Shown one piece after another: positions 3,070 to 30,385 of a DNA stretch of 36,555 nt. The notes under the pieces are model-generated. The model saw only the letters and a program-made list of their open reading frames with translations. It was not told where the DNA came from and ran no database searches. The DNA is from an uncultured Acidobacteriota bacterium. GTDB lineage: Bacteria; Acidobacteriota; Thermoanaerobaculia; UBA5066. The first letter of the stretch is position 1. Every line of letters starts with the position of its first letter. The stretch covers positions 1 to 36,555 of the forward strand of contig CALAQS010000296.1 in NCBI GenBank assembly GCA_937888435.1, read 5' to 3'. The position numbers and the translations under genes were made by a program.

Positions 3070-3320
3070 GGGGCCACCTCGCCCGCGCCAAGCGCCCCCA
3101 TCGCAGCCCCGAATTCTCGCGACTTCGCCTCCGTCTCGCGCCATTCGGCCTCCGCGCTCGAGTCCCACACGATTCCGCCTCCCGCGTGATAGTCCACTGT
3201 ATCCCGGCCGAGGATTCGGGTTGCCGGAGGATGCAATGTCGTCAAGGCGTCGAGGACCTCGGGGAGTTGCTCCGGCCGGCCGGCGCGCCGGAGCGTTTCT
3301 TCACCTTCTAAGAAACTCCC
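3066..3320 (-). pseudogene. pabB: C-terminal remnant of pabB (chorismate-binding enzyme)
   Basis: An open frame of about 85 codons ends at the TGA at 3068-3066, inside the pabC-like start. It contains DYHAGGGIVWDSSAEAEW followed by RETEAKSREF, the signature C-terminus of PabB/TrpE-type chorismate-binding enzymes (GGGIVxDSxxxxE...K), preceded by ALTTLHPPATRILGR, which fits the preceding strand. The other roughly 350 residues of a normal PabB are absent: upstream DNA holds the divergent thioesterase gene. No ATG or Shine-Dalgarno serves this fragment. The 322 bases between the pabC-like start and the thioesterase hold only this tail, a GC-rich inverted repeat at 3270-3293 and a purine/pyrimidine-rich element at 3304-3360. 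I read it as a deletion relic whose coupling to pabC survives. Confidence 0.65.
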
Positions 3321-3360
3321 CGGTCCCCCTCTCTTCTTTCAGTCCCCAACTCTCTCCCCT
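3304..3360 (-). repeat. Purine-rich interspersed element, copy A
   Basis: On the minus strand a purine-rich run is followed by the core TTTCTTAGAAGG (3315-3304). The core matches the copies in leuS and rluD. Unlike the others it lies at the broken upstream edge of the pabB remnant and between divergent genes. Confidence 0.5.
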
Positions 3361-12639: not shown

Positions 12640-13062
12640 GTGGCTTTCAAGCTCGACGACGACGCAAACGCCTTCTCGGACATCAACGTCACGCCTCTCG
12701 TGGACGTCATGCTCGTGCTTCTGGTCATCTTCATGGTCACGGCGCCGCTCCTTCATCAGGGCGTCGAGGTCCAGCTTCCGAAGTCCGTCGCGCAGAACCT
12801 TCCGAAGACGCCCGAGGACCCGCTCATCCTCTCCATCACGAAGAACGGGAACTACTACCTGAACGAGACGCCCATTCCGAAGTCGCAGCTCAAGGAGCGC
12901 CTCCATCTCATCCTCTCGCGCCGCCACGACAAGGCCGTCTACCTGAAGGCCGACCGCAACCTCGCGTACGGCGTCGTCGTCGAGACCATGGACACGCTCA
13001 ACCGGCTTGGTGTCGAGAGCCTCGGAATGGTGACCGAGCTCCGGGGCGAGGGCGCTCCATGA
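12640..13062 (+). CDS. tolR: TolR/ExbD-type motor subunit
   Basis: 140-residue inner-membrane protein with one N-terminal helix and a periplasmic domain. INVTPLVDVMLVLLVIFMVT near residue 19 carries the conserved membrane Asp used in proton transfer, and the periplasmic part contains LPKSVAQNLP and VYLKADRNLAYGVVVETMD, normal for ExbD/TolR. The start is GTG at 12640, with AGGGCAGGA upstream and only 13 bases after the tolQ stop; the stop overlaps the tolA ATG (ATGA). It works with TolQ to drive TolA and so support outer-membrane constriction at division. Confidence 0.95.
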   Translation: MAFKLDDDANAFSDINVTPLVDVMLVLLVIFMVTAPLLHQGVEVQLPKSVAQNLPKTPEDPLILSITKNGNYYLNETPIPKSQLKERLHLILSRRHDKAVYLKADRNLAYGVVVETMDTLNRLGVESLGMVTELRGEGAP

Positions 13063-13841
13063 CGACGCGCGCGGCGGCGCTTCCCGGACCGCTCACCGTT
13101 TCGGACATCCTCGCGCAGCGCGCGCGCACCGGCCTCGCCCCGCGCTCCCTCACGGTTGCCGTCTCGATTCTCGCGCACGCTGGGTTCCTCGCGCTCCTTC
13201 TCTTCATTGGCAAGCCGCGCAAGGCGCCGGTCTTCATCCCGATGTCCCTGCCCGTTCGCGTCGTGAGCCCCGCCTCCCTCGGCCGGCCCCAGGCCGCGCC
13301 CGCTCCCGCCCCCGTGGCCGCGCCGGCCGAGCCGGCGCCGGCGCCGAAGGCGAAGCCCGTGATCGAGAAACCCTTCGAAAAGACCCTCCCTTCCGCGAAA
13401 GCGATGCCCGAGCCGAAGAAGCCCGCGAAGCCCGAGAAACCGAAGGCCGCTCCGGGCGCCGTGAAGTCCGCCGTACCCGCGCTCGAGCTCCCGAGCGCCG
13501 CGGGGACCGCGAACGGCAGCACCTCGGGTGCGGGTGTCTCTTTCGGGGCATCGGTCACCTCGTTCGACGCCGACTTCCCTTTCGCGTATTACGTGGAGCA
13601 GCTCCTCTCGCTCATCGGCGCGAACTGGTTCAAGCCGGAGTCGGTCGACGGCACGAGCTGCGTCGTCTCGTTCCGCGTCATGCGTTCCGGACAGGTGACG
13701 GACGTCAAGGTCGATTCATCGTCGGGTGTGAGCTACTACGACCGGGCCGCGGAGCGTGCCGTGTTCGCCGCGAACCCGCTTCCACCGCTCCCGCCGGATT
13801 ACCGGAACGAGTCGCTCGGCGTGCACCTGAAATTCCAGTGA
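13059..13841 (+). CDS. tolA: TolA/TonB-like energy transducer
   Basis: 260 residues. An N-terminal cytoplasmic stretch is followed by one membrane helix (LTVAVSILAHAGFLALLLFIG, residues 28-47), then a Pro/Ala/Lys-rich periplasmic linker (APAPVAAPAEPAPAPKAKP and following) and a C-terminal TonB/TolA-type domain with YVEQLLSLIGANWFKPES, VVSFRVMRSGQVTDVKV and ERAVFAANPLPPLPPDY. In the Tol system it connects the TolQR motor to TolB and Pal. The short linker and the TonB-like C-terminal domain differ from the long helical TolA of Escherichia coli but are common outside gamma-proteobacteria. Both ends overlap neighbours by 4 bases (ATGA with tolR, GTGA with tolB), so the three should be made in fixed proportion. 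Confidence 0.9.
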   Translation: MTTRAAALPGPLTVSDILAQRARTGLAPRSLTVAVSILAHAGFLALLLFIGKPRKAPVFIPMSLPVRVVSPASLGRPQAAPAPAPVAAPAEPAPAPKAKPVIEKPFEKTLPSAKAMPEPKKPAKPEKPKAAPGAVKSAVPALELPSAAGTANGSTSGAGVSFGASVTSFDADFPFAYYVEQLLSLIGANWFKPESVDGTSCVVSFRVMRSGQVTDVKVDSSSGVSYYDRAAERAVFAANPLPPLPPDYRNESLGVHLKFQ

Positions 13842-15262
13842 AGGGGAAGTCGTTGAAAGAAGAAAGAGAAAACGGAGAAGAGAAGGTTTCTTTGAAAGGG
13901 GTCAGGGGCGCCGGCGCTCTCCTGGCTGCAGCGGCCCTGTTCTCGGGCGCTCCCCTTTTCGGCCAGGCGCCGAAGAGTGCGCCGACTCCTTCCGGTGTCG
14001 CGCAGCCCTCGAACATCGATCTCACGCTCACCGGCGCCACCGGAGCGCGGCGGCCGCTGGCGATTCCGATGACGATCGCGCCGATCTCGCCCGACCTCCA
14101 GTCGCGGGGCGTGGATCCCTTCTACACGACGCTCTCCGACGACCTCGCGGGCTCCGGCGTCTTCGTCGTGGCCGATCCGGCTCTCTACCCGAAGGCGATG
14201 CGCCCGCCGCGGAACCGCGAAGAGGGCGACGCGTGGAAGGCCACGTCGGCCCAGTTCCTTCTCGACACGCACCTCGCGCCCGATGGGGGGAACGTGGTCG
14301 TCGAGGCGATGCTCTGGGACCTCGGGATGCTCAAGCCCATCCTGAGCAAGAAGTACTCCGGCGAGCTGCGCGCGGTGCGCCGCATCGCGCACACGCTCGC
14401 GAGCGACCTCGTGCGCCAGTTCACGGGCAGGCCCGGGCCGTTCCTCACGAAGATCGCCTTCTCGTCCGACCGCGAACGGGTCGCGGGGAAGCACGTCGTG
14501 AAGGAAATCTTCACGATGGACTTCGACGGCGACAACCAGCGCCGCATCACGTATTCGAACACGCTGTCGCTCGCGCCAGACTGGTCGCCGGATGGCACGA
14601 AGCTCGTGTACCAGTCGTATGAGAAAGACACGCCTGGCCTGTGGCTCATCGGAAAGGACGGAACCGACAAGCGCCAGATTCCGGTCCCGACGCAGCTCAA
14701 CGCGTCGCCGTCCTTCTCCCCCGACGGCAAGACGGTCGCGTTCTGCGGAAGCGTGAAGGGGAACACCGAGATCTTCACGGTCCAGACGGACGGGTCGAAC
14801 CTGAAAAGGCTCACCGAGAACGCGGCGATCGACTCGACGCCCCGGTGGTCCCCGAACGGCCGCGAGCTGGCGTTCACGTCGAACCGTCAGGGCACGCCCC
14901 AGATCTTCATGATGGACCTCGAAGGCGCGAACGTGCGGCGCGTATCGCTCGCGGGGAACTGGAACGACGAGGCGGCGTTCTCACCGGATGGCGGGCGGCT
15001 GGCGTTCGCCTGCCGGAACGAAGGCGATTTTCAGATCTGCGTCATGGACCTCGCGACCGGGCGGACCGTTCAGATTTCGAGCGGAACTGGCGCAAATGAA
15101 GGGCCCACGTGGTCACCCGACGGCTCGAAGATCGCCTGGGAGGTGCAGCGCGGCGACTCCACGCAGATCGTGGTCGGAAACGCCGATGGCGGCGGCACGG
15201 CGCGCATCGTGACGTCGTCCGGGAACAATTTTTCCCCCTCGTGGATCAAAACGCTAGAATGA
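13838..15262 (+). CDS. tolB: Tol-Pal system protein TolB
   Basis: Periplasmic protein of up to 474 residues: an N-terminal domain (PMTIAPISPDLQSRG, FYTTLSDDLAGSGVFVV) and a C-terminal six-bladed propeller with repeated WSPDGTKLVY, FSPDGKTVAF, WSPNGRELAFTSNRQGTPQI, FSPDGGRLAF and WSPDGSKIAW blades. It binds Pal and receives TolA. The GTG at 13838 overlaps the tolA stop (GTGA), but then residues 2-20 form an odd Glu/Lys-rich stretch before the signal sequence LLAAAALFSGAPLFGQ; this stretch is encoded by a purine-rich repeat (13853-13908). An alternative TTG at 13892, with AGAAGG 5 bases upstream, would give a conventional signal peptide and 456 residues. I keep the coupled start but consider both possible. 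Confidence 0.94.
   Translation: MKGKSLKEERENGEEKVSLKGVRGAGALLAAAALFSGAPLFGQAPKSAPTPSGVAQPSNIDLTLTGATGARRPLAIPMTIAPISPDLQSRGVDPFYTTLSDDLAGSGVFVVADPALYPKAMRPPRNREEGDAWKATSAQFLLDTHLAPDGGNVVVEAMLWDLGMLKPILSKKYSGELRAVRRIAHTLASDLVRQFTGRPGPFLTKIAFSSDRERVAGKHVVKEIFTMDFDGDNQRRITYSNTLSLAPDWSPDGTKLVYQSYEKDTPGLWLIGKDGTDKRQIPVPTQLNASPSFSPDGKTVAFCGSVKGNTEIFTVQTDGSNLKRLTENAAIDSTPRWSPNGRELAFTSNRQGTPQIFMMDLEGANVRRVSLAGNWNDEAAFSPDGGRLAFACRNEGDFQICVMDLATGRTVQISSGTGANEGPTWSPDGSKIAWEVQRGDSTQIVVGNADGGGTARIVTSSGNNFSPSWIKTLE
13853..13908 (+). repeat. Purine-rich interspersed element, copy B (tolB N-terminus)
   Basis: Low-GC purine run with core GAAGGTTTCTTTGAAAGGG (13882-13900) followed by GTCAGGGG. It aligns almost base for base with the copy at 26698-26724 in ileS (GAAGATTTCTTCGAAAGGG then TCAGGGA). 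It encodes the charged N region before the TolB signal peptide. Confidence 0.6.
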
Positions 15263-17112: not shown

Positions 17113-17628
17113 CTAGAACCCCTCTAGGATGGTCGTGACGAGGTTCTGCGCGAATGGGCGGGCCATCGCCTCGATGGCCTCGCGCTCGCGGTCGTAATAC
17201 GAGCTGGCGCTCGAGGGCACGGTGTAGGGCTGGCGGAAGAGGTACGCGGGCTCGGAGAAGATGGGCTTGTCGGTGGCTTTCTCGGTGAGAACGAGCTTTC
17301 CCGACACGGTCACCTGGTATTCGACGGCGATTCCGTTCGCGTCGAAGCGCACGGGCGCGACGCTGCACGCGGTCAGGCGTCCGGACAGCTCGGCGTCGGC
17401 CGCCGAGCGGTCGGCCACGGGCTTCAGCCGCCCGCGGGCGGACAGCTCGCGAATGACGGCGTCCGTGAGGCGCTGCTCGAGGCCCACCACCGTCGTGTCG
17501 TTGATGAACGTCGGCACGTAGACCGTCTTGACGCCAAGGGGCAGCGCGCTCGACCCGGTACCCACGAGGGAGTAGCCACAGCCGAGAAGACCGAGGAGAA
17601 GGGCGACGAGGAAGATCTCTTTCCTCAT
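17113..17628 (-). CDS. lptE: LPS-assembly lipoprotein LptE
   Basis: 171-residue outer-membrane lipoprotein that plugs the LptD barrel and helps insert lipopolysaccharide. [17 protein letters not shown] has the lipobox LLGC with Cys17, followed by the CGYxLxG start typical of Lpt[31 protein letters not shown] (residues 33-62) and the repeated beta strands after it fit the family, as does the C-terminal helix with [18 protein letters not shown]. The ATG overlaps the leuS stop (ATGA); the leuS-lptE order is common in Gram-negative bacteria. It indicates an LPS-bearing outer membrane. Confidence 0.9.
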
Positions 17629-20144
17629 CGCACAACGATATTCAGCAGGCGGTCCTGCACCCAGATGGTCTTCACGCGCTGCTTGCCTTCCAGCCAGCGC
17701 GCCACGGCCGGATTCGCTTCCGCGGCCGCAACGACCTCCTTCTCGGAGGCTCCCCTTTGGACGCTGAGCTCCGCCCGGACCTTTCCGGAGACTTGCACGG
17801 CGATGGAAGCGGATTCCATCTCGGCGAGCGCCGGATCGAAGCTCGGCCAACCCGACGCGAGCAGGCTCTTCTTTCCCCCCATCTTTTCGTTCAATTCCTC
17901 GGAGAGGTGCGGCGCGATGGGATGGAGCAGCGTCACGAGCGTTCGCAGCGTCGCCGCGGTCTCTCCCGCGTCCGCGCCCGCGTCGTTCACGAGGACGGTG
18001 GCGCCGTTGAGGAACTCCATGAGGTGCGCGACGGCCGTATGGAACGAGAACGCCCGGAAGTCCTCCGTGACTTTCTTGATCGCCATGTGGCGCGCGCGCG
18101 CCATGGGCGTGTCGGCCTTTGCCGGCTGTGCCTGCGGGTCGGCGCCCGTCGCGAGAAACCGGTCCACGGCGCCGCGGACCCGCCAGAGGAAACGCTCCGG
18201 CCCGCTGATGCCCTCGTCGCTCCACTCGGTGTCTTTCTCCGGGGGCCCAAGGAAGAGGACGAACGCGCGCACGGCGTCGGCGCCTTTCTCGGCGATGAGC
18301 GCGTCGAGCGACACCGAGTTGCCGCGCGACTTCGACATCTTCTCCACGCGGCCCGTCGGGGACAGGCGCGTGATCATCCCCTGGTTGAAGAGCGCCGAAA
18401 ACGGCTCCTCGAACGTCACGAGGCCGAGGTCCTTGAGGATGCGCGCGAAGAACCGCGCGTAAAGGAGGTGCAGGATCGCGTGCTCGATGCCTCCGATGTA
18501 CTGGTCGACGGGCGCCCACTCCTTCACGATGGCGGGGTCGAAGGGCGCCCCGGCGTTTTTCGGGTCGATGTACCGGAGGTAATACCAGGACGAGTCCACG
18601 AACGTGTCCATCGTGTCCGTCTCGCGGCGGGCCGGGCCGCCGCACGAAGGGCACGTCGTCTGGACGAACGAAGCGACCTTCTCGAGCGGATTTCCGCCCT
18701 TGCCCGTGAACGGCGCGTCCTTAGGCAGGACGACGGGCAGGTCCCTCTCCGGTACCGGCACCCAGCCGTCCTTCTCGCAATGGACCATGGGAATCGGCGT
18801 GCCCCAGTAGCGCTGGCGCGAGATGAGCCAATCGCGCAGCCTATACCGCACGCGCGGGCCGCCAATCCCTCTCTTCGCGGCTTCGGCCGAAATTAGTTCG
18901 CGAGCTGTGGAAGAAGATTCTTCTGTGAATGGACCAGAGGCAATGAGGCGGCCCTCGCCCGTATAACAGTCGCCCTCTCCCTCTTCCCTTCTAAGAAAAT
19001 CTTCTTTCTTCTCTTCTCTTCCCGGCTCAATAACCTTGACGATCGGAATGCCGTACTTTTTCGCGAACTCGAAGTCGCGCGTGTCGTGCGCGGGCACCGC
19101 CATGAGCGCGCCCGTGCCGTAGTCCGCGATGACGAAGTTCGCGAGCCACACGGGCACTTCCTGCCGGGTGAAGGGGTTGATCGCCGTGCGACCGGTGTCG
19201 CGGCCGTCCTTCTCGGCTCCGTCGGCCTCGCGCACGATGCGCTCCTGACTGCGCACGGACGTGACCCACGTCTCCAGCTCGGCCCGCTTCGGGTTGCCTT
19301 CGAGAAGGCGCGGGACGAGCGCGTGCTCGGGCGCGAGGATGAGCGCCGTGGCGCCGAAGACGGTGTCCGGGCGCGTCGTGAAGACGCGGACGGTCTCGTT
19401 CAGCGACGGGATCGCGAAATCCAGGTCGGCGCCCGTGGACCTGCCGATCCAGTTGCGCTGCATCGTGACGACCTTCTCGGGCCACTTGCCGAGCGTGTCG
19501 AGGCCGTCCAGGAGGCGATCGGCGTAGTCGGTGATCTTCAGGAACCACTGTTCGAGCTCGCGCGGGACGACCGCAGTGCCGCACCGCTCGCAGACGCCGC
19601 CCTCGGCCTGTTCGTTCGCGAGGACGGTGAGGCACGACGGGCACCAGTTCACGGCGGACTTCCTGCGGACCGCGAGACCCTTCTCGAGGAGCTTCAGGAA
19701 GAACCATTGGTTCCAGCGGTAGTACTCCGGCTCGCAGGTCGTGACTTCCTTCGTCCAGTCGTAGAGAACGCCCCACGACCGAAACTGCTCCTTCATCGCC
19801 GCGATGTTCGCGAGCGTGGACGTGCGCGGGTGGACACCCTTCTGGATCGCGTAGTTCTCCGCGGGCAAGCCGAACGCGTCCCAGCCCATCGGGCAGAACA
19901 CCGTCACGCCCGTCTGGCGCAGGAAGCGGTGGAGCGCGTCCGTGAGAAAATACGTGCGCGCGTGCCCGACGTGGAGGCGGTCGCCCGAGGGATAGGGAAG
20001 CATGACGAGGAGATACGTCCCGTCGCCCCCCGCCTTCGCCGTGTCGACGAACGCCGCGTGGTCCGCCTCCCAGCGGTCGCGCCACTTCGCCTCGATCCTG
20101 AGGATTTCGTCGCCCTTCGTACTCGCCGTCGCCGTGCGTTGCAT
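17625..20144 (-). CDS. leuS: Leucyl-tRNA synthetase
   Basis: 839-residue class I synthetase that charges tRNA-Leu. Seen: the HIGH-type motif [16 protein letters not shown] near residue 52, the zinc-like knuckle [14 protein letters not shown]...CERCG near 165, the CP1 editing-domain motif [20 protein letters not shown] near 255, [20 protein letters not shown] near 436, and EKMSKSRGN near 609. The end, [18 protein letters not shown], is the usual C-terminal domain. A short Glu/Lys/Arg-rich insert ([15 protein letters not shown]) follows [10 protein letters not shown] in CP1; it is encoded by a purine-rich repeat at 18971-19024. No Shine-Dalgarno precedes the ATG; TACACT lies 10 bases upstream. 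Its stop overlaps lptE. Confidence 0.97.
18908..18930 (+). repeat. Weak purine-rich element in leuS
   Basis: GAAGAAGATTCTTCTGTGAA on the plus strand (antisense to leuS) shares the GAAGAwTTCTT core but not the flanks. It encodes EESSS in a variable loop 80 bases from the stronger copy D. Confidence 0.3.
18971..19024 (-). repeat. Purine-rich interspersed element, copy D (leuS)
   Basis: On the coding (minus) strand an AG-rich run leads into the core GAAGATTTTCTTAGAAGGG (19005-18987), then AAGAGGGAG. It is nearly identical to the mtnP copy. It is in frame and encodes the extra charged loop of LeuRS between IEPG and CYTGEGRL. Confidence 0.65.
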
Positions 20145-23074: not shown

Positions 23075-24000
23075 CTCTCGTCCTTCTTCAAAAACAGCGC
23101 GAGGCGTTTCGAGGTGGCGGGCCCAACCCGGTTCCTCGGCGTGAGAACGGCCCCCGTGATGGCGTCCGCGCAGTCGCTCGGACGGTTTGGGTCGAGGTGT
23201 CGGACGGCGTTCGCAAGGACGCGATTCGCCGTGCCTGCGTTTTTCTTCAACACGGCGAGAACGGCCTCCACCGAGACGGCGGCCTGTGCCTCGTTCCAGC
23301 AGTCGTAGTCCGTGACGAGCGCCATAGAGGCGTAGCCGATCCCCGCCTCGCGGCCGAGCTTCGCCTCGGTCGCGTTGGTCATGCCGATCACGTCCGCGGC
23401 CCAGGAGCGGTAGAGCAGCGACTCGGCCACCGTCGAAAACTGAGGCCCCTCGATGCACACGTACGTCCCGCCCCGGTGGCACGCGGCGCCTTCCGCTTTC
23501 GCGGCCGCCTCGAGAGCGTCGAGGAGGACGGCCGAAACCGGATGCGCGAACGACACGTGCCCCACGCAGCCGTCCCCGAAGAACGTCGAGACGCGCCGTT
23601 TCGTCAGGTCGAGGAACTGGTCCGGCAGGACGATGTCGGTCGGCTCGTAGGCCTCCTTCATCGAGCCGCAGGCCGAGGCCGAAAGAAGCCACGAGCAGCC
23701 CAGCTTCTTGAAGCCCCAGATGTTCGCGCGGTAGTTGATCTCGGAGGGCAGGAGGGAATGGTGACGCCCGTGTCGGGCGAGAAAAGCGACGGGGACCGAG
23801 GAAAGATTTCCGAGAAAATAAGAGTCGGAAGGGGCGCCAAAGGGCGTCGAGAGCGCGACTTCGCTGGTGACCTCGAGGCCGGGAAGCGAATACAGACCCG
23901 AGCCTCCGATGAGGCCGATGCGTTTTTCTTCCCTCTTACCCTTCAAGAAAATCTTCTTATTCTCTTTCTTGCTTTTCCGAACAGATCTCTCCTTCTTCAT
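23071..24000 (-). CDS. mtnP: S-methyl-5'-thioadenosine phosphorylase
   Basis: 309-residue enzyme that splits methylthioadenosine, by-product of polyamine and homoserine-lactone synthesis, into adenine and methylthioribose-1-phosphate. Seen: RIGLIGGSGLYSLPG near residue 27, FLARHGRHHSLLPSEINYRA near 73, GGTYVCIEGPQFSTVAES near 165, and IGMTNATEAKLGREAGIGYA near 190, as in MTAP-group phosphorylases. The first 26 residues are a Lys/Glu-rich extension absent from relatives and encoded by a purine-rich repeat (23921-23975); an in-frame TTG at codon 19 is a possible alternative start. The ATG overlaps the oxidoreductase stop (ATGA) and the stop overlaps the kinase gene. Confidence 0.94.
   Translation of the reverse strand: MKKERSVRKSKKENKKIFLKGKREEKRIGLIGGSGLYSLPGLEVTSEVALSTPFGAPSDSYFLGNLSSVPVAFLARHGRHHSLLPSEINYRANIWGFKKLGCSWLLSASACGSMKEAYEPTDIVLPDQFLDLTKRRVSTFFGDGCVGHVSFAHPVSAVLLDALEAAAKAEGAACHRGGTYVCIEGPQFSTVAESLLYRSWAADVIGMTNATEAKLGREAGIGYASMALVTDYDCWNEAQAAVSVEAVLAVLKKNAGTANRVLANAVRHLDPNRPSDCADAITGAVLTPRNRVGPATSKRLALFLKKDER
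23921..23975 (-). repeat. Purine-rich interspersed element, copy E (mtnP N-terminus)
   Basis: Coding-strand AG-rich run with core GAAGATTTTCTTGAAGGG (23956-23939), then TAAGAGGGAAG. It differs from the leuS copy by few bases. It encodes the extra N-terminal residues before the first strand (RIGLIGGSG) of MtnP. Confidence 0.65.
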
Positions 24001-24956: not shown

Positions 24957-25053
24957 AGGGATGGCTCGCGCCCGCAACATGATCAGTTGGAATCAATTGA
25001 AGGCCGGCTCCTTGCCCGGCACGGGCCGACCGCGTAACCTCCGCGGCTTCACC

Positions 25054-28000
25054 ATGAGCCCTCGCGACTGGAAGTCCACGCTCCTCCTGCCAAAGACGGA
25101 GTTCCCGATGAAGGCGGACCTGCCGAGGCGAGAGCCCGTCCGCCTCGCACGGTGGCACGCGGAGAATCTCTACGGGCGGATCCGGGAGGCGCGCGCGGGA
25201 GCCCCGCGCTTCCTCCTGCACGACGGTCCGCCGTACGCGAACGGCAAGATCCACATCGGCACGGCGATGAACAAGATCCTGAAGGACCTCGTCGTGCGCA
25301 GCAAGACGCTCGCGGGCTTCGATTCGCCTTACGTGCCCGGCTGGGACTGCCACGGCCTGCCCATCGAGCTGAGCGTGGACAAGGAGCTCGGAGCAAAAAA
25401 GCGAGAGATGTCCGACGTCGCGATCCGCCAGGCCTGCCGGAAGTTCGCGGAGAAGTGGATCGACGACCAGCGCGCCGACTTCAAGCGCCTCGGAATCCTC
25501 GGCAGGTGGGAGGCTCCCTATCGGACCATGGACTTCTCCTATCAGGCCGAGATCGCGAAGGCCTTCGGCGGATTCGTCGACCGGGGCCTCGTCACGTTTG
25601 GATTCAAGAGCGTGCTCTGGTGCGTGCGCGACCGCACCGCGCTCGCCGAGGCGGAGATCGAGTACGAGGACAAGGTCGACCCTTCGATCTACGTCGCGAT
25701 GCCGATGCCAGTCGACGATTTCTCCAGCAGCGTCTGGGAGCTCGCCGCGCTTGGCGTGCGGCGTCTCTATGCGGTGATCTGGACGACGACGCCGTGGACG
25801 TTGCCCGCCAACCGAGCGATCACGCTGGGTCCGAAGATCGAATACGTTCTTCTGAAAAAGGAATCGGAACCCGGCGCCGCCTATCTCGTAGCCGACGCGC
25901 TGGTTTCGCAGGTGACGGCCGCGCTCGGCTGGCACGACGCCTCCCCTCTTCCCCACTCGAAGAAAAGCGGTGAGACGATCGCCCGGGCGGGACTCGCGCC
26001 GCGATACGCCCGCCCGTTCGCGTCCGACTCATTCGACAATTTCGGTTTCCTTCTGGGCGAGCATGTCTCGACGAGCGACGGCACGGGCCTCGTTCACACG
26101 GCGCCCGGGCACGGGCGCGACGACTATGAGGTCGTGAGGCGGCACGGTATCGCGGTCGACGACGCCGCGCTTTGCCCCGTGGACGAAGGCGGCTTCTACG
26201 ACGCGAACGCGCCGGAGTTTCTACGCGGGAAGAGAGTGGTCATCCCGAAAACGCCCGACCAGAGTGCGAACGACGCCGTTCTCTCTGCGCTCGCAAGGAA
26301 CGCGGCGGAAGCATCTTCCTTCCGTGACCATCCCGAAAAGGATCAGTCCGGCGCTCTCCTTCTTTCGAAGACATCCCTCTCTCATTCGTATCCCCACTGC
26401 TGGCGGTGCAAGCAACCGGTCATCTTCCGCGCGACGCATCAGTGGTTCATCGACCTGCACGCGATCCGCGACGAGGCGCTCGCCGAGATTCACGACCGCG
26501 TCAAGTGGATTCCTCCTTTCGGCGAGAACCGCATCGGCGCGATGGTCGAGAACCGCCTCGAGTGGACGATTTCGCGCCAGCGCCGCTGGGGCTCGCCCAT
26601 CACGTTCCTGCGGTGCACCGAGTGCAAAGAGAAGGGCGTCGTGTCGCACTATCCCGCGGTCGAAGGAAACGTCGGAGAGAAGCAAAAGAGAGAAAGAGAA
26701 GATTTCTTCGAAAGGGTCAGGGAGACGTTCCGCCAGCATGGGGCCGATGCGTGGTATGACGACGAGCGCTTCCCCCCCTCCTACTTTCTAAGAGAATCTT
26801 CTTCTTCCTCCTCTTCCTCTTCATCCTCCTCTTTGTCTCCCGCTTGTTCTCGATGCGGCGGGAGGTCGTTCGAGAAGGTCAAGGACATTCTCGACGTCTG
26901 GTTCGACTCGGGGGTGTCGCACGCGGCAGTGCTCCGGTCGGGCGACTACGGGCTGCCGGATCCGTACACGGCAAAACCCCCGACGCCGGTCGTCTATCTC
27001 GAAGGCCATGACCAGCATCGCGGCTGGTTCCAGTCGTCGCTTCTCACGTCCGTCGCACTCACGGGCCGCGCCCCGTACGACGCCGTGATCACACATGGCT
27101 TCGTCGTGGCCGGCGACGGCCGGAAGATGTCGAAGTCGCTCGGAAACACGGTGGACCCGCAGGACGTCATCAAAAAAGACGGCGCCGACGTGCTGCGGCT
27201 CTGGGTCGCCTCGGTCGACTACACGACCGACGACCCCGTCTCCGAGGAAATCCTCAAGCGAACGGCCGAGGCGTATCGCAAGATCCGCAACACGGCGCGC
27301 TTTCTGCTGTCGAATCTGTTCGACTTCGATCCGGCGAAGGACAGCGTGCCCGCCAGCCGCCTCGAGCCCCTCGATCGGTGGGTGCTCGACGTCGCGGCGC
27401 AGTTTGCCGACGAAGCGAGAGACGCCTATGGCGCCTATGCGTTTCACGTCGTGTCGCGGCGCCTCCTCGAGCTCGTGACGACGGACCTGTCTGCCTTTTG
27501 GTGCGACGTGCGCAAGGACGTCCTTTACGTTCTCGCCGCGAACGATCCGGTGCGGCGCTCGGCGCAGACTGCCGCCTACCGCCTCGCCGAGACGATCGCG
27601 GTTGCGCTCTGTGCGATCTGCCCGTTCACGGCGGAAGAGATCTGGGAAGCCATCCCCGGGAATGCAGCGAATCCCTCAGCGCTCTTCCTGAAAAGCTGGA
27701 GCAACCTCCAGCTCCCAGAGATTCCTTCGAGTGAAAGAGAGGCCTGGGGCCGCGTCCTCGCGCTTCGAGCGGAATTCCTCGCGCGGCTCGAGCCCTTGCG
27801 ACGGGACGGGAAGGTCGGATCCGCCGCCCAGGCCGCCGTCGAAATCGGTCCAGGCCCTGCTCTCGACGCCGACCTCGCTCTCTCATCCCTTTCAGAAGAA
27901 AAACTCGCCGAGGTGCTCGGAGTGCCGCTCGTCGTGCGCTCGACGGCGACGCGAGCGTCCGAACAGAGCGACCTCTACGGCGGTCTCACTCTGCTGGTCC

Positions 28001-28107
28001 GCCCCGCCGAGGGCGTCAAGTGCCCACGCTGCTGGCAGATGCGGAAGAACGTCGAGCCCGGACCCGACGGGATCTGCGCGCGCTGCCGCCGCGTCGTCGG
28101 CGAGTAG
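25054..28107 (+). CDS. ileS: Isoleucyl-tRNA synthetase with several repeat-encoded inserts
   Basis: Class I synthetase that charges tRNA-Ile and edits Val-tRNA-Ile; about 1017 residues against roughly 930-940 usual. The start at 25054 puts [16 protein letters not shown] at residue 9, the normal N-terminus; an earlier ATG at 24961 would add 31 non-conserved residues. Seen: [20 protein letters not shown] near 56, [12 protein letters not shown] in the editing domain near 247, [20 protein letters not shown] near 505, [13 protein letters not shown] near 611, [14 protein letters not shown] near 689, and a C-terminal zinc site (CPRCW...CARCRR). The excess length lies in low-complexity inserts: one around 950 bases into the gene, one near residue 435, EKQKRERED near 543 and a run of 12 serines (582-593). 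All are in frame. Confidence 0.97.
25940..25970 (-). repeat. Weak purine-rich element in ileS (editing domain)
   Basis: Read on the minus strand, TTTTCTTCGAGTGGGGAAG then AGGGGAGG matches the second half of the leuS/mtnP copies. It encodes [11 protein letters not shown], a variable loop. Confidence 0.4.
26353..26385 (-). repeat. Weak purine-rich element in ileS, before SYPHCW
   Basis: Minus strand GATGTCTTCGAAAGAAGGAG resembles the core GATTTCTTCGAAAGGG of copy C. It encodes LLLSKTSLS upstream of the conserved HSYPHCWR. Confidence 0.4.
26673..26724 (+). repeat. Purine-rich interspersed element, copy C (ileS)
   Basis: AG-rich run with core GAAGATTTCTTCGAAAGGG (26698-26716) then TCAGGGA, closely matching copy B in tolB. 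It is in frame and encodes a charged insert ([17 protein letters not shown]) in a non-conserved loop of IleRS. Confidence 0.65.
26769..26842 (-). repeat. Purine-rich interspersed element, copy F (ileS, poly-Ser)
   Basis: Opposite in orientation to copy C: the minus strand reads a long (GAA/GAG)-rich run into GAAGATTCTCTTAGAAAG (26801-26784). The sense strand is therefore a TCT/TCC/TCA tract that encodes 12 consecutive serines just before the conserved CSRCGG motif. Two elements in opposite orientation lie 45 bases apart. Confidence 0.65.
27877..27910 (-). repeat. Weak purine-rich element in ileS C-terminal region
   Basis: Minus strand GTTTTTCTTCTGAAAGGGA then TGAGAGAG resembles copies B and C. 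It encodes [12 protein letters not shown]. Confidence 0.35.
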
Positions 28108-29384: not shown

Positions 29385-30385
29385 CCGGGGCGCCCCGGCC
29401 GCGGCGCATGATCCGCGCCGACCGGGGCGACGCCGGCGAGCGCCTCGACCTCGTGCTGCTCCGACACCTGAACGATCTTCCCGAGGCCTCGCGCACGAAG
29501 ATCCAGGAGTGGATTCGCAGCGGGCTCGTGAGGGTGAACGGAAGAGAACCGGGAAAATCTTCTGAGAAGGTGAAAGCGGGAGAAGACATCACGATCGAGC
29601 TTCCGGCGCCTTCCCCCGCGAGGCCCGAGCTCGTCGCGCAGGACATTCCTCTCTCCATCCTTTTCGAAGATTCCGAGATCCTCGTTCTGAACAAGCCGCC
29701 CGGCCTCGTCGTCCATCCCGCCGTCGGACACCGCGACGGCACGCTCGTGAACGCGCTTCTCCACCGCTCGAAGGAGTGGGCCGGTCCCGCCGACAGGCCC
29801 GGGCTCGTCCACCGGCTCGACAAGGACACCTCCGGCGTTCTCGTTGTTGCGAAGACGGAGCGGGCGATGGCGGTTCTTGGTCGAGCGATGAAAGAGAGAT
29901 TCTTAGAAAAGGAATATCTGGCGGCCGTTTACGGCAAGGCGCCGCTGAGAAAGGGGCGCATCGACCTGAAGATCCGCCGAGACCCGGCCGACCGCAAGCG
30001 CATGGCGGTTTCGAAGAGCGAGGGCCGCGACTCTTCCACTCTCTATGAGATTCTCTCCGAATCTTCGGGCCCTCTCTCCGGCCTCACGCTCCTGAAGTGC
30101 CGCCTCGTCACGGGCCGGACGCACCAGATCCGCGTCCACCTCAAGGCGCTCCACCTTCCCATCGTCGGCGATCCCACGTACGGCGCGCCGCGGTGGAAGG
30201 GGATTGTGGACGAGACGTTGCGCGAGCTCTGCCGGACCTTTCCACGTCAGGCGCTCCACGCCTGGCGCCTCACGTTGAAGCATCCGACCACAGGCGAAAA
30301 AATGACCTTCACCGCGCCGGTGCCGGGCGACGTGAAGGCGCTGCTCGAGGCCGCGGGGCTGGCGCCCCCGGGCGCGGGAGCCTGA
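29381..30385 (+). CDS. rluD: RluD-family 23S rRNA pseudouridine synthase
   Basis: 334-residue RNA-modifying enzyme that isomerises uridines, probably in helix 69 of 23S rRNA. An S4 RNA-binding domain at the N-terminus (SRTKIQEWIRSGLVRVNG) is followed by the catalytic domain with ILVLNKPPGLVVHPAVGH, the catalytic Asp in PGLVHRLDKDTSGVLVVAK and GRTHQIRVHLKALHLPIVGD. The GTG at 29381 overlaps the lgt stop (GTGA); an ATG at 29408 is an alternative. Two purine-rich stretches related to the repeat family, at 29541-29586 (after the S4 domain) and 29887-29917, encode charged loops. Assignment to RluD over RluC is by domain arrangement and length. Confidence 0.94.
   Translation: MTGAPRPRRMIRADRGDAGERLDLVLLRHLNDLPEASRTKIQEWIRSGLVRVNGREPGKSSEKVKAGEDITIELPAPSPARPELVAQDIPLSILFEDSEILVLNKPPGLVVHPAVGHRDGTLVNALLHRSKEWAGPADRPGLVHRLDKDTSGVLVVAKTERAMAVLGRAMKERFLEKEYLAAVYGKAPLRKGRIDLKIRRDPADRKRMAVSKSEGRDSSTLYEILSESSGPLSGLTLLKCRLVTGRTHQIRVHLKALHLPIVGDPTYGAPRWKGIVDETLRELCRTFPRQALHAWRLTLKHPTTGEKMTFTAPVPGDVKALLEAAGLAPPGAGA
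29541..29586 (+). repeat. Purine-rich element, copy G (rluD, divergent)
   Basis: AG-rich sequence with GGGAAAATCTTCTGAGAAGG then TGAAAG; related to the family core but with the central bases rearranged. It lies in the linker after the S4 domain (GREPGKSSEKVKAGED). Confidence 0.4.
29887..29917 (+). repeat. Purine-rich element, copy H (rluD)
   Basis: GAAAGAGAGATTCTTAGAAA then AGGAATAT contains the TTCTTAGAA core (within 29896-29912). It encodes MKERFLEKEYLA; this segment is normal in RluD proteins, so it may be a resemblance and not an insertion. Confidence 0.4.

Follow-up and report, generated by a model that had tools for sequence, protein, structure and literature searches.

The ileS gene of this uncultured Acidobacteriota bacterium raises the question of how an essential gene can carry several patches of one repeated sequence and still be read through. 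The window, which is the whole 36,555-nucleotide stretch analyzed here, is one contig of a 3.70-Mb genome (G000), and was compared with three sister genomes of the same genus (G001, G002 and G003) and with outgroups. An initial annotation had proposed up to five element-like inserts in ileS, as well as a hotspot at this gene. It was right that a dispersed DNA word occurs there in both orientations inside an essential gene, and the main interest lies in the genus-wide paired word that was reached by way of the ileS patches.

The isoleucyl-tRNA synthetase gene and its patches

The ileS open reading frame corresponds to a protein of 1048 amino acids. An alignment with 17 homologues begins at MSPRDWKS, and the closest solved chains are isoleucine-tRNA ligases. 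Since 31 codons (24961–25053) precede the conserved start at 25054, the true length of IleRS is probably 1017 rather than 1048 residues. The gene and the patches, scored with a profile of the word that was built from copies with at most two edits, are as follows.

25054..28107, + strand: ileS (isoleucyl-tRNA synthetase), from the open reading frame 24961–28107 and the alignment
26681..26725, − strand: left arm of the ileS pair, 15.2 bits; coding strand GAAGATTTCTTCGAAAGGG, peptide REDFFERV; in all four genus members
26775..26816, + strand: right arm of the ileS pair, 22.1 bits; TACTTTCTAAGAGAATCTTC, peptide YFLRESS
26797..26841, + strand: serine-rich pyrimidine tract, 15 codons replacing Gly-Gly of the closest sister, net gain of 13 residues; this species only
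26356..26390, + strand: degenerate copy, no profile match here; 14.2 bits in G003 (LLLSKKSSPHSY) and 5.5 bits in G002
25942..25966, + strand: degenerate copy, PLPHSKKSG; 1.1 bits here, 8.7 in G002, 6.1 in G001 and 5.4 in G003

The two strong copies in opposite orientation that had been reported initially were thus recovered. Three weaker copies had also been claimed. None of them is significant in this genome, where one scores 1.1 bits and two give no match, and two are borne out as copies in the sister species; the third, at 27887–27907, has no profile match here and is unsupported in all four genus genomes.

The protein is indeed longer than the typical 917–921 residues of the best-aligned solved IleRS structures. 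Over the same region, it has 1021 residues in this species and 986–999 in the sisters, compared with 971–983 in family outgroups with complete genes and 946–981 in more distant ones. Five inserts do not account for the excess. Only the copy near 26690 comes with extra residues, six in all four genus members relative to most family outgroups, and to this must be added the serine-rich tract of the present species. The left half of the right arm, TACTTTCTAAGARAA, is present in all four genus members, with unchanged protein length in G002, at a place where the outgroups have FLxEG in GC-rich codons. At 25942 the length is the same as in the family outgroups. At 26356 the word itself causes no change of length relative to the family outgroups; a loop longer by 13 residues lies directly ahead of it in three of the four genus members, and is absent from G003, which has the strongest copy. 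At both of these patches, the outgroups use GC-rich codons where the genus writes the word. For most patches, the loops are ancestral and equally long at the level of the family, the outcome that the initial annotation had named as refuting its proposal. The spacer between the two arms is native gene sequence.

Abundance and distribution of the word

The core consensus of the word is CYTTCTAAGAAAATCTTC, about 18 letters inside a pyrimidine-rich strand. Derived from 110 copies, the consensus reads YYTTMCYTTCTAAGAAAATCTTC and continues for about 20 positions of no fixed sequence and roughly 80% pyrimidine. The only symmetry visible in it is a short and imperfect palindrome (AAGAA-AATC-TTCTT). 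Outside the word, another box, TTTCCGAAGCAAAAT, looks like a tandem variant copy of it, and some arms of paired units bear extra tandem copies with a varied center. The family has many imperfect members.

The word is present in all four genomes of one genus of Thermoanaerobaculia (Acidobacteriota). Allowing at most one mismatch, the 18-mer gave 30, 29, 32 and 50 matches in G000, G001, G002 and G003, respectively, and near-exact copies numbered 13–28 per strand per genus genome, with similar forward and reverse counts. In two separate scans, the scoring covered 150 candidates per genome. Among 143 genomes of the class outside the genus, one genome had a single match at the same tolerance and 142 had none. 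A scan of a named collection for the exact word returned 35 stretches, 27 of them in three Acidobacteriota MAGs and eight as singles elsewhere. The three MAGs, labelled Acidobacteria, Acidobacteriota and Thermoanaerobaculia bacteria, correspond to G001, G002 and G003. The genus genomes are smaller (3.5–3.7 Mb) than other genomes of the family (mostly 4.5–6.2 Mb).

At a threshold of at least 8 bits, the profile gave 65 matches in 516 kb of genus sequence, consisting of seven contigs scanned nearly whole, several of which were already known to hold matches. The reversed sequence gave nine, whereas neither a dinucleotide shuffle nor 103.5 kb of family outgroup loci gave any, and matches of this strength are thus rarely due to chance. 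Because the word is partly mirror-like, the reversed sequence serves as an imperfect null for the core, and the shuffle and outgroup controls weigh more. A seedless count of 10-mers in the 516 kb had pieces of the word at the top of the over-represented sequences, the best being TTTCTTAGAA, found 18 times against 0.08 expected. Units occurred at a density of about 99 per Mb in the seven contigs, and their spacing was close to random and not significantly more even (coefficient of variation 0.85 vs. 0.94 ± 0.11).

In the literature on uptake sequences, palindromic intragenic repeats or repeats in Acidobacteria and Thermoanaerobaculia, no such word was described among the matches listed, as judged from titles and the opening of abstracts in sources that include few subscription journals.

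Copies form inverted pairs of one polarity

The arrangement of neighboring copies was strongly biased. Among copies of at least 6 bits lying 50–300 bp apart in 1.54 Mb, 95 of 114 neighbor pairs had the order "−+", compared with nine "++", nine "−−" and one "+−". At distances of 300–2000 bp, the four orders were similar in number (34 "−+", 35 "++", 42 "−−" and 42 "+−"). In the seven contigs, an opposite partner within 300 bp was found on the inner side of 31 of 55 strong copies and on the outer side of none; eight had a neighbor in the same orientation. The preferred unit thus consists of two inverted words whose CCTTCT ends face each other across an arbitrary spacer of about 20 to 280 bases. 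Pairs like that in ileS are the common arrangement, and the ileS pair is one such unit.

The gap in 89 pairs had a median of 107 bases, with quartiles of 72 and 130. The gaps seem clustered near 66–75 and 125–130 bases. No helical or codon phase was detected in the 89 gaps, and DNA looping at a fixed helical phase was rejected for lack of a 10–11 bp periodicity. When the spacers of 33 pairs were compared, the one strong match, of 25 bases, came from a pair of orthologous copies, and three others spanned 12–17 bases, which argues against a MITE with a common interior. The two arms of a unit fit each other no better than they fit the arms of other units, either in identity (19.81 within units vs. 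19.91 across) or in duplex energy (−48.2 vs. −47.5, s.d. 0.7). Template-switch copying and hairpin pairing were both rejected, since neither similarity nor complementarity was greater between the arms of one unit than between arms of different units.

Copies arise by substitution and by insertion

The ileS gene is not the special hotspot it had been taken for: the word also lies in leuS, in further genes and in many stretches between genes. The names leuS, mnmE, alr, DUF1015, purine nucleoside phosphorylase, TolB and pseudouridine synthase are those that we presume from the sequences. The other copies in the window are as follows.

18975..19025, + strand (gene on −): strong copy in leuS, left arm, 28.4 bits; insertion relative to the outgroups
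18907..18936 (approximate), − strand: weak partner in leuS, right arm; 1.8 bits here, 9.9 in G002, 8.9 in G001 and 7.0 in G003
23931..23973, + strand (gene on −): N-terminal copy in a purine nucleoside phosphorylase-like gene, 16.5 bits; peptide NKKIFLKGKREE; shared with G002
3293..3333, + strand: intergenic copy, 16.3 bits; near-perfect copy at the orthologous place in G002
13868..13911, − strand: copy right after the gene at 13058–13841 and upstream of a TolB-like gene, 11.2 bits; G002 and G003 have copies at the corresponding position
29540..29579, − strand: copy within a pseudouridine-synthase-like gene, 11.6 bits; the G002 locus scores 6.3 bits at its corresponding end

The two arms in leuS differ in origin. 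The right arm is recognizable in all four genus members, and its length is that of six outgroups. The left arm is missing from G002 and G003, and G001 has two copies at the same place. In the LeuRS loop (leuS, window positions 17628–20144), this distribution corresponds either to repeated gain at one place or to repeated loss.

The DUF1015-like gene gave an example without any change of length. Where five outgroups have PEAFLAEV and similar peptides, G000 has KEDFLRKV and G003 has REDFLEGV. At this one place, the codons are GAG GAT TTT CTT AGA AAG in G000 and GAG GAT TTC TTA GAA GGG in G003, with the word shifted by one base relative to the codons. The use of the same word in two registers indicates a constraint on the DNA and not on the peptide. 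The mnmE copy is of the same length as the corresponding stretch in G005, while G008 is shorter there; these were the two of six fetched outgroups that the alignment took in.

The same conclusion is suggested by the reading frames of 97 intragenic copies. All frames are used, and 24 copies sit, as variant words, in the two frames that the consensus would close with a stop codon. The LLRKSS frame is among those in use, and there is no single conserved inserted peptide. With every frame in use, including the two that bear a stop, the constraint looks to be on the DNA, with both substitution and insertion supplying the word. Between sister genomes, there are also clear indels at intergenic units, with presence/absence differences at #94 (107 bases in the stretch compared) and #82 (117 bases), and these count against a view of pure substitution.

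Of 53 comparisons between species with a flank identity above 0.6, 39 retained the word, a share that is too high because most of the G001–G003 stretches were fetched for a match and the sample is biased accordingly. In the 39 comparisons that retained the word, the mean identity was 0.85 for the core and 0.75 for the flanks.

Genomic location

We assigned 317 copies of at least 8 bits to genes and intergenic regions, using gene calls from a simple codon-usage script, some of which are wrong. Between genes there were 137 copies and deep within genes 134, compared with 470 and 3613 of 5000 random points; the intergenic share was thus 43% of the copies and 9% of the random points. The enrichment held alike for intergenic regions of the tandem, divergent and convergent types, which makes a promoter or terminator role unlikely. 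A phage origin was rejected: among 23 viral stretches with a match, 21 had one profile hit and two had two (both of 42% GC), with no sign of a carrier. For an origin of the word in the 3' end of the 16S gene, which was also considered, the one 16S found was partial and lacks that end.

Mobile elements and other explanations

A small mobile palindromic element, whether a MITE, a REPIN-like sequence or one like the Rickettsia palindromic elements, might have inserted into genes in frame and then decayed. Such an element would fit a dispersed repeat found in both orientations and enriched between genes, as well as the presence/absence differences with indels in leuS and at several intergenic units. 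Inverted dimers, furthermore, are common among known REPs (PMC3733652). We consider this explanation unlikely, given that several copies occur at unchanged length relative to the outgroups, that spacers are not shared across non-orthologous loci and are native gene sequence in ileS, and that copies also stand in frames that a consensus word would interrupt with a stop. Moreover, Y1 (RAYT-type) transposase genes were found in none of the four genus genomes, compared with six of seven other family genomes searched (1 to 10 matches each).

The two best-known kinds of such elements differ from the word in other ways. Rickettsia palindromic elements are dispersed in both orientations and lie in essential genes without breaking them (PMC10969869). 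The word resembles them in both respects. The Rickettsia elements, however, are insertions of about 150 bp that encode a conserved peptide, whereas copies of the word often leave the length unchanged, use all frames and have unshared spacers; neither a clean insertion of fixed length with its own interior nor a conserved inserted peptide in one frame was found. REP and REPIN sequences, which go with a RAYT transposase, are also short repeats and often inverted dimers (PMC3733652). Unlike them, the word has many copies within genes, and its consensus from 110 copies lacks a GTAG or CGTC tag; with no Y1 transposase found in the four genus genomes, REPIN was rejected.

An RNA-level signal, in which a sequence-specific factor binds or cleaves a hairpin formed in the transcript by the inverted pair, would fit a spacer length that is free and without helical phase, and the purine-rich arm does come first in transcripts from either strand. 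We regard it as quite improbable: the arms of a unit show no better fit to each other than to foreign arms, and the enrichment extends to intergenic regions between divergent genes, through which no transcript need run.

Finally, low-complexity expansion, by which purine/pyrimidine simple repeats grow in flexible protein loops with no specific signal, is very improbable and is refuted as a full account by a core that is one specific word in 13–28 near-exact copies per strand, by the fixed polarity of the pairs and by the lack of such matches in the shuffle and the searched family outgroup sequence, while the flanks are simple pyrimidine tracts, one of which became a serine run in ileS, and expansion may explain their changes in length.

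A proposed genus-specific recognition word

From the sequence comparisons, we think it somewhat probable that the patches represent a genus-specific DNA recognition word, often two-armed, that is kept by selection or biased exchange, and not inserted mobile elements. The abundance of the word, its restriction to the genus, the polarity of the pairs, several in-place origins and the differing reading registers are direct observations. A putative sequence-specific DNA-binding factor would read the word, which would be maintained by selection or by a bias in the exchange of DNA that contains it. Most copies would arise when point substitutions alter existing sequence, and some through short insertions, and they would be kept wherever the altered protein tolerates them. 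The suggestion in the initial annotation that selection decides where the word is tolerated was correct.

DNA uptake sequences (DUS in Neisseriaceae and USS in Pasteurellaceae) are the closest parallel. They are abundant, lineage-specific words on both strands, in and between genes, that are built by point substitution rather than insertion, with about 10% present as inverted repeats (PMC1939737). They form lineage dialects, with inverted pairs in some genomes (PMC3630211). Like them, the word is over-represented in its lineage and lacking in relatives, and has coding and intergenic copies without strand preference (134 of 317 in gene interiors and 137 of 317 intergenic). Substitution likewise accounts for the ileS patches, the leuS right arm and the DUF1015-like and mnmE copies, whereas insertion gave rise to the left arm in leuS and to some of the ileS copies. 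Unlike uptake sequences, which are mostly single words, 31 of 55 strong copies had an inverted partner within 300 bp; more than half of the strong copies thus form inverted pairs that share a single polarity and are separated by about 20–280 bp. It is also longer, and its roughly 100 units per Mb compare with hundreds to thousands of copies per genome-megabase. In being restricted to a lineage, tolerated within genes and created by point mutation, the word behaves much like uptake sequences, but we do not file it as one. Chromosome-architecture sites, such as the sequences bound by Noc or SlmA, are tolerated at tens to hundreds of sites in coding sequence and are single palindromes. The word resembles such sites in the number tolerated in coding sequence, and differs in having a two-armed unit and a binding protein that is putative.

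As for a concrete role, the likeliest would be a self-recognition signal for DNA uptake or exchange, an assignment made by analogy that we put forward tentatively as possible. A chromosome-architecture binding site comes next and is rather doubtful. There is a somewhat better, though still minority, chance that the word is a two-armed signal of a new kind: a lineage-specific word in inverted pairs of fixed polarity and flexible distance, at hundreds of loci including essential genes, made largely by substitution and read by a putative factor.

Several observations count against a recognition word. No protein that recognizes it was found. The insertions (the leuS left arm and units #94 and #82), together with imperfect members such as a decaying repeat would have, would speak against recognition, and the intergenic enrichment also fits mobile DNA. 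Uptake sequences are usually denser and mostly unpaired. The spacing of the units is not significantly more even than random.

Outside two proteobacterial families with their uptake sequences, abundant lineage-specific DNA words that reshape proteins are, to our knowledge, not well known. Finding a comparable one in an uncultured genus of Acidobacteriota, with a strict pair polarity atypical of uptake sequences, would show that such signals arise elsewhere, perhaps with another reader. Odd protein loops in this genus should be interpreted with caution, as they may reflect a constraint on the DNA rather than protein function. The two-armed geometry makes a direct search for a binding factor possible.

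The profile gave no match of at least 8 bits in 400 kb from G005, which belongs to another genus of the family. This genome has an over-represented word of its own, AGGGACAGACA, with one of its 10-mers found 13 times against 0.36 expected. G005 also carries several Y1 transposase genes, and its word may be a REP family.
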